Below, piece by piece: positions 13,503 to 26,190 of a stretch of DNA of 64,000 nt (its first letter is position 1; each line of letters starts with the position of its first letter). The translations under genes and the position numbers were made by a program. The stretch covers positions 372,001-436,000 of the forward strand of contig NZ_JACHWU010000002.1 in assembly GCF_014191605.1 (NCBI RefSeq), read 5' to 3'. Below the pieces are notes generated by a model, which saw only the letters and a program-made list of their open reading frames with translations, made no database searches and had not been told where the DNA came from. This DNA comes from Prauserella isguenensis. GTDB taxonomy: Bacteria; Actinomycetota; Actinomycetes; Mycobacteriales; Pseudonocardiaceae.

Positions 13503-13705
13503 GATCGGGTCCCTCCCGGGTGATCGGTGGCCCGGCACGGGCCGGATGCCCGTGCCGCCGGCCTGTCCAAGCCTTATCACCGCGACGGCCGCCGTGTGTG
13601 CCCGACCGCCCGGGACCCGAGCTGCCGGCCGTCGCCGGGCACATGCCCGACCGGGACGGCGGCGGATATCACACACGTTCCGGCGGCATCCGGCCGCACC
13701 CTTGG

Positions 13706-13734
13706 TTGAATACAAAAAAGGACAAGCGTACTGT
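13706..13734 (+). promoter_or_regulatory. acn promoter
   Basis: TTGAAT (13706-13711), a 17-bp spacer and TACTGT (13729-13734), 100 bp before the acn start. It stands out as an A-rich patch and overlaps the AcnR-type operator. Confidence 0.65.
13718..13733 (+). promoter_or_regulatory. AcnR-type operator in the acn promoter
   Basis: AAGGACAAGCGTACTG matches the Corynebacterium AcnR motif, which I recall as CAGNACnnnCGTACTG, at all but the first base. It covers the spacer and -10 of the acn promoter, where a repressor would block polymerase. The matching regulator gene is at 23008. Confidence 0.7.
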
Positions 13735-13831
13735 TTATGGCGCAGGGATTGTCCGAGCCCACCTCTGCGGGCGCGACGGGGGTGCGCAAGACTCGGCCCT
13801 GGGTACCCGAACTAACCGCCGCATGGAGTGA

Positions 13832-16660
<2,829 letters not shown>

Positions 16661-22954: not shown

Positions 22955-22970
22955 CAGTACGTACGTACGG
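22955..22970 (+). promoter_or_regulatory. AcnR-type operator before the acnR-like gene
   Basis: CAGTACGTACGTACGG matches CAGNACnnnCGTACTG except one base near the end. It sits one base before the -35 of the gene at 23008, as expected for autoregulation. Confidence 0.6.
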
Positions 22971-22971
22971 T

Positions 22972-23000
22972 TTGCATCCGGTGCACACGCGGTGTCAAGA
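22972..23000 (+). promoter_or_regulatory. promoter of the acnR-like gene, probably leaderless
   Basis: TTGCAT (22972-22977), 17-bp spacer, TCAAGA (22995-23000). Transcription would begin about at the ATG at 23008, which has no ribosome-binding site, so the transcript may be leaderless. Confidence 0.5.
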
Positions 23001-23007
23001 TCGATGA

Positions 23008-23586
23008 ATGCCACGGGTCAGCCAGGACCACCTCGAGGCGCGCCGGCGCCAGATCCTCGACGGGGCACGTCTGTGTTTCGGACGGTTCGGCTACGAAGGT
23101 GCCACCGTCCGCAGGCTCGAAGACGCCACCGGCCTGTCACGCGGCGCCATCTTCCACCACTTCCGGGACAAGGAGTCACTCTTCCTCGCCCTCGCCGAGG
23201 ACGACGCCGCCCGCATGGCCGACGTCGTCGCGCAGCAGGGACTGGTCCAGGTGATGCGCGATCTGCTGGCGGGCGACTCCGAACATCCCGCCGACTGGCT
23301 CGGCACCCGGTTGGAGGTCTCCCGCAGGCTGCGCACGGATCCCGAGTTCCGCGGCCGGTGGGCCGAGCACTCGCAACAGCTCACGACGGCCACCCGCAAG
23401 CGACTCGAATGGCAGCGCCGGTCCGGCAACCTGCGCGACGACATCGGCGTCGACGTGCTCGCCGAGTACCTTCAGCTCGTCCTGGAAGGCCTTGTCTCGC
23501 ACCTCGCCATGGGCCTGCCCGCCGACGACCTGGAACCCGTCCTGGACGTCGTCGAGGACAGCGTCCGCCGGCACCGGGGCGACTGA
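23008..23586 (+). CDS. acnR: TetR-family repressor, AcnR-like
   Basis: 192 residues. Helix-turn-helix in the first 60 residues: ILDGARLCFGRFGYEGATV then RRLEDATGLSRGAIFHHF. The stretch continues DKESLFLALAEDDAARMADV, which resembles the Corynebacterium aconitase repressor AcnR as I remember it, and the Mtb homologue Rv1474c next to acn. Here the gene is 6.3 kb from acn, separated by the egt operon, but AcnR-type operators occur in front of both acn and this gene. Predicted role: repression of acn and of itself. Divergent from egtA. Confidence 0.8.
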   Translation: MPRVSQDHLEARRRQILDGARLCFGRFGYEGATVRRLEDATGLSRGAIFHHFRDKESLFLALAEDDAARMADVVAQQGLVQVMRDLLAGDSEHPADWLGTRLEVSRRLRTDPEFRGRWAEHSQQLTTATRKRLEWQRRSGNLRDDIGVDVLAEYLQLVLEGLVSHLAMGLPADDLEPVLDVVEDSVRRHRGD

Positions 23587-23830: not shown

Positions 23831-25147
23831 ATGGACGTCCTGCTCACCATCGGGGGCCTGCTGGTCGTACTGCTGCTGACCGTCGGCACCGGCCTCGCGG
23901 TGGCCGCCGAGTTCTCGCTCACCACGCTCGAACGCAGCACCATCGAGGCCAACGTCCGCCAGGTCGGCGACCGGCGGTCCCGAACCGTGCTCAAGGCGCA
24001 CCGCACCCTCTCGTTCCAACTCTCCGGAGCCCAGGTCGCGATCACGCTGACGACCCTGCTGACCGGTTACGTCGCCGAACCGCTGCTGGGCCAGGTCATC
24101 CGCCCGGTGCTGACCGGAATCGGACTGCCCGACGGCGCCGCCCGGGGCACGTCGCTGGTGCTGTCGATGCTGCTGGCCACGGCGCTCTCGATGGTGATCG
24201 GCGAGATGGTGCCGAAGAACCTGGCCGTCTCGCTCCCCCTCAAGACGGCGCGGGCCGTCGCCGGGTACCACTCCCGGTTCTCGGCGCTGTTCCGCTGGCT
24301 CATCGCGCTCATGAACAACAGCGCCAACGTCGTCGTCCGCAAGCTCGGCATCGAGCCGCAGGAGGAACTGCGCTCGGCGCGCTCACCCCAGGAGCTCGGC
24401 TCGATCGTGCGCACGAGCGCCGCGAGCGGCACGCTCGACATCGCGACCGCCCAGCTGCTCGACCGCTCCCTGCGCTTCGGGGAACGCACCGCGGCGGAAC
24501 TGATGACCCCGCGCGTCCGTGTCGAATCGCTGCACGTCGAGGACACGGTCGCCGACCTCGTCGACCTGTCGCGCAGCACCGGCGTGTCCCGCTTCCCCGT
24601 GTACCGCGAGGACCTCGACGACGTACAGGGCGCGGTGCACGTCAAGCAGGCGTTCACGGTCCATGCGGATGAACGCCGCACCGTGTCGATCGGCTCGGTG
24701 ATGCGGCCCGTCCCGACCGTGCCGGAGTCGCTGCCGGGCGACGCGCTGCTCGACAGGCTCCGCGCGTCCCGGTTCCAGCTCGCGATCGTGGTCGACGAGT
24801 ACGGCGGCAGCGCCGGGCTCGTCACGCTCGAGGACGTGGTCGAGGAGATCATCGGCGACGTCCGCGACGAGCACGACGACCGCGAGGAACCCTCCTCCCA
24901 GCAGATCGGCGTCGACAGCTGGGCCGTGTCCGGCCAACTGCGCGGTGACGAGGTCGCCGACATCACCGGGTTCGCCATGCCCGACGGCGACTACGAGACG
25001 ATCGCCGGGCTGATCCTCGAACGGCTGGGCCGGATCCCCGACGTCGACGACGCGGTCGACATCGACGGCTGGCGGCTCACCGTCACCGAGATGGACCGGC
25101 ACCGCATCGCCGAGATCCGCGTCGAACGACGGGAGGTGCCTGCGTGA
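23831..25147 (+). CDS. CNNM/CorC-type (hemolysin-family) membrane protein 1
   Basis: 438 residues. N-terminal DUF21 transmembrane domain (about 1-190) with the helix VLLLTVGTGLAVAAEFSL and the conserved VIGEMVPKNLAVS; two CBS domains (about 210-335, MTPRVRVESLHV ... VDEYGGSAGLVTLEDVVEEI); C-terminal CorC/HlyC domain. Proteins of this family export Mg2+ or related cations; the hemolysin label is historical. It is the first of a tandem pair that overlaps by four bases (GTGA) with the next gene. The pair corresponds to Mtb Rv1842c/Rv1841c. Confidence 0.93.
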   Translation: MDVLLTIGGLLVVLLLTVGTGLAVAAEFSLTTLERSTIEANVRQVGDRRSRTVLKAHRTLSFQLSGAQVAITLTTLLTGYVAEPLLGQVIRPVLTGIGLPDGAARGTSLVLSMLLATALSMVIGEMVPKNLAVSLPLKTARAVAGYHSRFSALFRWLIALMNNSANVVVRKLGIEPQEELRSARSPQELGSIVRTSAASGTLDIATAQLLDRSLRFGERTAAELMTPRVRVESLHVEDTVADLVDLSRSTGVSRFPVYREDLDDVQGAVHVKQAFTVHADERRTVSIGSVMRPVPTVPESLPGDALLDRLRASRFQLAIVVDEYGGSAGLVTLEDVVEEIIGDVRDEHDDREEPSSQQIGVDSWAVSGQLRGDEVADITGFAMPDGDYETIAGLILERLGRIPDVDDAVDIDGWRLTVTEMDRHRIAEIRVERREVPA

Positions 25148-26190
25148 ACGACTGGGTCGCCATCTCCCTCATCGGGGTCCTGCTGGCGTTGAACGCGTTC
25201 TTCGTCGGCGCCGAGTTCGCGCTCATCTCGTCCCGGCGCGACCGTCTCGAAGCACTGCTGGAAGCCGGTAAGGGCCGAGCCAGAATCGTCATCAAGGCGG
25301 GCCGGAACGTCTCGCTGATGCTCGCCGGGGCGCAACTGGGCATCACCGTGTGTTCGCTGCTGCTGCTCCAGTTCGGCGAACCTGCCGTGGCGCACCGGCT
25401 CGAGGCTGCCGTGCACGCGCTCGGTGTGCCACTGCCCGCGTACGTCGTCCACGCCGTCGCCTTCGTCGTCACGCTCGTCGCCATCACGCTGCTGCACGTG
25501 CTGGTCGGCGAGATGGTGCCGAAGAACATCGCGATCGCCGAGCCCGAGCGGATGGCGTTGTGGCTCGTGCCCGTGCACGTCGCGTGGGTCCGGCTGGTGA
25601 ACCCGTTCCTGTGGCTGCTCAACGGCATCGCCAACGGCGTGCTGCGGCTCATGCGGGTCGAGCCGAGGGACGAGGTCGACACCGGCTACACCTCCGACGA
25701 GCTGGCCGCGCTGCTCAGCGAGTCGCGGCGGGAAGGTCTCCTCGAGCACGCCGAACACCGGCGGCTGTCGCAGACCCTCTCGTCGGCCGACAAGACCGTC
25801 GCCGACATCATCGTGCCGATGTCCGACCTGAGGACGGTGCCGGACCATCCGACGCTCGGCGACGTGGAGGCCGCCGTGTCCGCCACGGGCTTCTCCCGCT
25901 ACCCACTGCGGACCGGCGACGGCACGCTCGTCGGGTACCTGCACGTCAAGGACGTGCTCGCCCACCTCGGCGACGACTCCGACGCGCGGGTTCCGGCGAA
26001 CAAGATCCGCAGACTGACCCAGCTGCCGGTGCACGCCCGGCTGGACACGGCGTTGTCCGCGATGCGCAGGGAAGGCAGCCACCTGGCGACCGCCACCGAC
26101 GACGACGGCGAGGTCGTCGGGGTGGCGGCGTTGGAGGACCTCGTGGAGGAGTACGTCGGCACGGTGCGGGACGGCACACATGTCACCTGA
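25144..26190 (+). CDS. CNNM/CorC-type (hemolysin-family) membrane protein 2
   Basis: 348 residues. Same DUF21 domain (AFFVGAEFALISSRRDRLEA, LVGEMVPKNIAIAEPER) followed by two CBS domains, ending soon after DDDGEVVGVAALEDLVEEYV. Unlike its upstream neighbour it lacks the C-terminal CorC domain, so the two proteins may form an asymmetric pair. GTG at 25144 overlaps the previous stop. Its end overlaps the next gene by 11 bases. Confidence 0.92.
   Translation: MNDWVAISLIGVLLALNAFFVGAEFALISSRRDRLEALLEAGKGRARIVIKAGRNVSLMLAGAQLGITVCSLLLLQFGEPAVAHRLEAAVHALGVPLPAYVVHAVAFVVTLVAITLLHVLVGEMVPKNIAIAEPERMALWLVPVHVAWVRLVNPFLWLLNGIANGVLRLMRVEPRDEVDTGYTSDELAALLSESRREGLLEHAEHRRLSQTLSSADKTVADIIVPMSDLRTVPDHPTLGDVEAAVSATGFSRYPLRTGDGTLVGYLHVKDVLAHLGDDSDARVPANKIRRLTQLPVHARLDTALSAMRREGSHLATATDDDGEVVGVAALEDLVEEYVGTVRDGTHVT

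Follow-up and report, generated by a model that had tools for sequence, protein, structure and literature searches.

The window, as we call the whole 64-kb stretch of DNA that was analysed (G000:C2:372001-436000), belongs to the genome of Prauserella isguenensis, and two genes on its forward strand are considered here. The first, acn (13835..16660), has a GTG start and encodes the aconitate hydratase AcnA (NCBIfam PRK09277 and aconitase_1, both above cut-off), and the second, acnR (23008..23586), encodes a TetR-family regulator, P0001. They do not adjoin each other in the window: between them lie 6,351 bases (6.35 kb) with genes for a GNAT acetyltransferase and a deazaflavin-dependent nitroreductase-family protein, followed by egtDCBA (the EgtA product scores slightly under its curated cut-off, 348.8 vs 370.8), in agreement with the 6.3 kb and the egt operon given by the initial annotation of this DNA. 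Beyond acnR on the same strand stands a pair of genes for CNNM/CorC-type membrane proteins (23831-26190), and 64 of 80 named loci likewise have matches to both members of this pair downstream of acnR.

Judged by sequence similarity, P0001 is an orthologue of AcnR from Corynebacterium glutamicum, whose solved structures are PDB 4af5, 4ac6 and 4aci. A phmmer comparison returned E-values of 1.2e-58 for 4af5 and 1.3e-58 for 4ac6, the next solved TetR structure following at 9.8e-10, and 96 of 174 aligned residues (55%) are identical to the C. glutamicum protein. Residues 44-51 (SRGAIFHH), in the region of the recognition helix, are invariant in all 123 rows of an alignment that includes 4af5 and that contains many near-duplicates, since the genome set and the named loci overlap. 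The resemblance to AcnR first remarked on in the initial annotation is thus borne out. Within its own genome the closest other match to P0001 reaches 1.1e-7 and covers 69 residues (11-79), which makes this protein the only close match to AcnR there. The Pfam model TetR_N was found, a C-terminal model fell slightly below its cut-off (25.8 vs 27), and no NCBIfam model reached its cut-off. Among named records, the most similar acnR genes are those of Prauserella aidingensis (98% over 192 residues), P. halophila and P. alba (97% each). One record among the named loci, L117, titled Rhodococcus rhodnii NRRL B-16535, has an acnR 83% identical to P0001 and the same perfect palindrome as Kibdelosporangium; it looks mislabelled or contaminated.

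The promoter of acn was read manually as a probable -35 element TTGAAT (13706..13711), 17 nt of spacer and a probable -10 element TACTGT (13729..13734), the latter invariant in 35 aligned members of the window's own family, f1. A motif scan places a predicted AcnR operator of acn, the 16-mer AAGGACAAGCGTACTG (13718..13733, forward strand), across the spacer and the -10, so that TACTGT falls within the operator just as had been proposed, and the footprint conserved in the same 35 family members extends past the 16-mer through TTT to about 13736. A search of the leader for RNA elements gave no Rfam match up to E = 1 (13650-13900), and the consensus fold of its gapped alignment had an energy of 0, as did the shuffles.

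In front of acnR, a second 16-mer, CAGTACGTACGTACGG, occupies 22955-22970 and forms part of a predicted AcnR operator of acnR, the 20-bp imperfect palindrome CAGTACGTACGTACGGTTTG (22955..22974, forward strand), identified by scanning and conservation. Its last bases lie inside the probable -35 element TTGCAT (22972..22977), of which TTG is invariant in 32 aligned members of f1. By manual reading, 18 nt separate TTGCAT from a probable -10 element, CAAGAT (22996..23001), to which a related hexamer stands at the same distance in most of the f1 members displayed; because this -10 lies only 6 nt before the ATG, the acnR mRNA is probably leaderless. The initial annotation had placed the acnR site one base upstream of the -35; the 16-mer does lie there, and the conserved operator proved to be 20 bp long, to overlap the TTG of the -35 and to have another centre of symmetry. 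Neither promoter is listed by a strict sigma-70 consensus scan.

The motif quoted in the initial annotation has the same form in the available part of PMC2723105, according to which AcnR of C. glutamicum binds CAGNACnnncGTACTG upstream of acn; the window's acn promoter carries this operator at 13718-13733 with one mismatch, and relatives conserve it. Scanned in the 64-kb window with at most one mismatch, CAGNACNNNCGTACTG gave three matches against 0.21 expected, a number reached by none of 100 shuffles, and all three fall at the two 16-mers reported earlier, 13718 and 22955, the latter being matched on both strands. With up to three mismatches, 78 matches compare with 55.9 expected, and looser matches therefore mean little. 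Across the genome (4.95 Mb, 15 contigs), the 16-mer with one mismatch occurs 22 times, compared with 17 for the reversed control; it is not discriminating at this scale, and the case therefore rests on comparison between genomes. When the core was extended by its right flank (ANNNCNNNCGTACKGWTT), four matches were found in 4.95 Mb and none in the reversed control; two are the acn and acnR promoters, and the other two overlap opposite-strand reading frames. Because the pattern derives from these same promoters and from related ones, it provides no independent test; the comparison between genomes does. The two sites have a common right half, CGTAC(T/G)G(A/T)TT.

For acn, that comparison covered 107 upstream regions of 300 bases, scanned on both strands, of which 61 came from 60 genomes (two from G055) and 46 were picked by family from 200; families are numbered f1-f16 as in the comparison set, and our guess is that f8 comprises mycobacteria and their kin and f15 Micromonosporaceae. 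The initial annotation had named a motif scan of orthologous acn promoters as a check and absence of the motif from them as a refutation. The motif is not absent: among 73 regions taken from genomes with acnR, 67 contain the 16-mer with at most two mismatches (none in 22, one in 28 and two in 17), always on the coding strand, counts that are not independent, the genomes being related, and for which no p-value is given. All six regions without a site (G044, G057, G085, G100, G120 and G154) belong to f10, and in these six genomes acnR immediately precedes acn in the same orientation, and the 20-mer stands before acnR with one or two mismatches. Where acnR was not detected, 31 of 34 acn regions have no site. 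The 34 are one region from each of 33 genomes and one from G055, upstream of its second aconitase; G055 has acnR, and this region has no site. The three of these 33 genomes that keep a site, G017, G048 and G115, are assemblies of 1020, 440 and 380 contigs with completeness of 74, 82 and 100%, and we read the missing acnR as lost in assembly gaps, a reading that falls short of proof. By comparison, 31 of 1070 first-order random sequences modelled on the same regions reach two mismatches. Across the order, the acn site goes with the presence of acnR. The f1 genome G008, which is 97% complete, has neither, and it was left out of the acn footprint alignment.

In G069, G146, G159 and G113 the neighbourhood of acn was searched for a degraded acnR, with no convincing match (best E 0.072). 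Two of these, the f4 genomes G146 (L251) and G159 (L252), have no acnR and a more distant aconitase, at 64% identity where the remaining f4 genomes listed show 73-82%; it looks as though acn was replaced at the time of the loss of acnR.

Upstream regions of acnR were drawn from two genome sets (44 from one and 27 picked from the other), with the split acnR of G058 left out. Of the 34 f1 genomes, 33 have CANNNCGTACGTACGGNTTG with no more than two mismatches in the 200 bases preceding acnR, 28 of them as an exact match; the operator usually starts 52-54 bases before the start codon (28 bases in G010), and only in G029 was none found in those 200 bases at up to two mismatches. In the 80 named loci, which overlap with the comparison genomes, the 20-mer block is present within two mismatches in every case (66 with none, 11 with one and three with two). 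When 32 f1 members were aligned on the site, G029 and G010 being left out, information content was about 2 bits at the core CGTACGTACGG and at TTG and mostly 0.1-0.5 in the preceding 30 bases; anchoring on the site favours the site in such an alignment, but it has no bearing on the constant distance to the gene. Elsewhere, an acnR operator within two mismatches was found in 12 of 14 f15 genomes (G102 and G136 being those without one), 7/7 in f10, 2/5 in f13, 1/3 in f5, 0/2 in f4 and 0/6 in f8; allowing three mismatches brings f13 to five of five, all 52-54 bases before the gene, and f5 to three of three. The best match before acnR in the six f8 genomes checked, where acn and acnR are adjacent, has 6-8 mismatches. 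Most f15 genomes share the start at 52-54 bases; the f5 and f10 sites begin 30-44 bases ahead of acnR, where they cover or adjoin the presumed -10. An operator before acnR is thus found where the gene stands apart from acn or ahead of it, and is absent from the f4 and f8 genomes checked, in which acnR directly follows acn; exceptions to this pattern are f13, where acnR lies about 100 bp behind acn and has its own site, and the separated genes of G029, G102 and G136, which have none.

The initial annotation had pointed out that both sites are retained despite the intervening genes. This holds across f1; what does not stand is the implication that the gap is peculiar to this genome, for separation of acn and acnR is the rule in the window's family and not special to P. 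isguenensis. Among the 34 f1 genomes with both genes, 28 carry them on the same strand of a single contig, separated by 2,650 to 29,467 bases, and five carry them on two contigs; G022 has them on opposite strands of a 9.44-Mb contig at a distance of 5.77 Mb, and both of its sites persist with one mismatch each. Adjacency is accordingly usual, not defining, for AcnR, because the protein and the sites hold without it in 34 f1 genomes. A shared role of the operator with divergent egt genes is not claimed; the 52-54-base position is kept in named loci where egtA/egtB lie several kb away.

The two operators differ in their symmetry. The published 16-mer is centred between bases 8 and 9, and the centre of the acnR palindrome lies two bases further on; in several relatives the acnR block is the perfect palindrome CAATCCGTACGTACGGATTG. 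In f1 the mean number of self-complementary positions is 15.9 of 20 for the acnR copy and 4.3 of 20 for the acn copy (for the latter, 9.4 of 16 about the centre of the 16-mer); the acn copy of f15 averages 12.3 of 20. The window's acnR copy fits both centres (14/20 and 14/16). A repeat of period 4 in this copy (22955-22974), GTACGTACGTAC, permits two registers, and the acn operator (13718-13737) is centred differently. Since the symmetry of the two sites differs, one dimer mode may not fit both: either one dimer may read both kinds of operator or two dimers may overlap at acnR, and we favour neither.

From these comparisons we consider it very likely that the protein encoded at 23008 is AcnR and that it would bind and repress acn at 13718 and its own gene at 22955. 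Acting as a TetR-type dimer, AcnR would bind the 13718 operator over the spacer and -10 of acn and so block RNA polymerase, and would bind the 20-bp palindrome at 22955 over the -35 of its own, probably leaderless promoter and so limit its own synthesis. Relief would come when a ligand lowers DNA binding, and this ligand may be citrate with Mg2+, as in C. glutamicum, or iron, as for the mycobacterial orthologue.

AcnR could instead repress acn and activate its own promoter. The operator is centred near -43 relative to the presumed start of transcription, close to the position of a class II activator; in f1 and in most f15 genomes the 20-mer starts 52-54 bases ahead of the start codon, and the transcript seems to have no leader. 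We nevertheless judge self-activation unlikely, as the TTG of the -35 falls within the conserved block, an overlap that speaks for occlusion, the f5 and f10 sites (30-44 bases before acnR, over or next to the presumed -10) occupy a position of repression, and AcnR is described as a repressor in the accessible portions of PMC1180825 and PMC10961391. It is also conceivable that the sites belong to another conserved regulator acting on both genes, given that several further regulators of acn in C. glutamicum appear in the part of PMC13001254 that was available. This seems very improbable when the acn site is missing from 30 of 33 genomes without detected acnR, G008 of f1 included, and when both sites have the same right half and the acn site matches the published AcnR motif. 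Scarcely credible, finally, is a likeness due to nothing more than -10 and -35 elements together with chance in a GC-rich genome: each site does coincide in part with a promoter hexamer, and one-mismatch 16-mers are common genome-wide (22 vs 17 reversed), but conserved positions extend beyond the hexamers, to AGGAC at acn and to the left arm at acnR, and the site is missing from 31 of the 34 upstream regions without detected acnR (one being the second aconitase).

Under repression of both genes by AcnR, a more tentative idea is that autoregulation has been selected in its own right, which we regard as possible but somewhat doubtful: an acnR that leaves the acn unit would carry its own, more palindromic operator and would shut its own gene before acn. 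On this reading the operator would have been placed in at least two ways, over the -35 (f1, f13, f15) and over or near the -10 (f5). Against it stand f13, with an operator of its own although acn is about 100 bp away, and the separated genes of G029, G102 and G136 without one.

The C. glutamicum AcnR and its acn operator were reportedly described by Krug et al. in 2005, and in Corynebacterium and Mycobacterium acnR presumably adjoins acn. The window shares with C. glutamicum an orthologous predicted repressor and a near-identical predicted operator in the acn promoter, but differs from the adjoining arrangement that we take that species to have in that acnR lies 6.35 kb off behind egtDCBA, with a probably leaderless promoter and a palindromic predicted operator of its own. 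Repression of acn by AcnR in C. glutamicum is stated in the parts of PMC2723105 and PMC1180825 that were available, and citrate-Mg2+ is given as the AcnR ligand, bound in a non-canonical pocket, in the accessible part of PMC4746285. In Mycobacterium tuberculosis, Rv1474c (Balakrishnan et al. 2017) is an iron-responsive TetR repressor of acn co-transcribed with it, according to the available portions of PMC10961391 and PMC8164766. The window's regulator would likewise be a TetR repressor of acn, but whereas Rv1474c is co-transcribed with acn and the six f8 genomes with adjacent genes have no operator before acnR, acnR here has its own predicted operator. The f10 neighbours share the regulator and the operator, but there acnR precedes acn, and one operator before acnR could serve both genes. 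AcnR, its motif and the repression of acn are established in C. glutamicum, and the split wiring is a variant of that known system. Our literature search, which most subscription papers lay beyond and which therefore does not prove unpublished status, found no AcnR described in Prauserella, Amycolatopsis or their family, and no account of acn and acnR lying apart or of acnR having an operator to itself. The comparisons suggest that a regulator and its target can be separated, in one genome by megabases, without loss of predicted control, that the place of the operator follows gene arrangement, and that the AcnR operator description holds beyond Corynebacterium and Mycobacterium; they also provide a prediction for the control of aconitase in Prauserella, Amycolatopsis and their relatives, many of which are antibiotic producers.

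The acn leader contains a second conserved block, TGCGC(A/G)AGACTCG (13783-13795, forward strand), which has a single match in the whole genome. In 30 of 36 f1 genomes a block within two mismatches of TGCGCGAGACTCG lies 52-74 bases downstream of the operator start, and G008, which has no acnR, has no good match to it. This block may be another -10 element or the site of another regulator.
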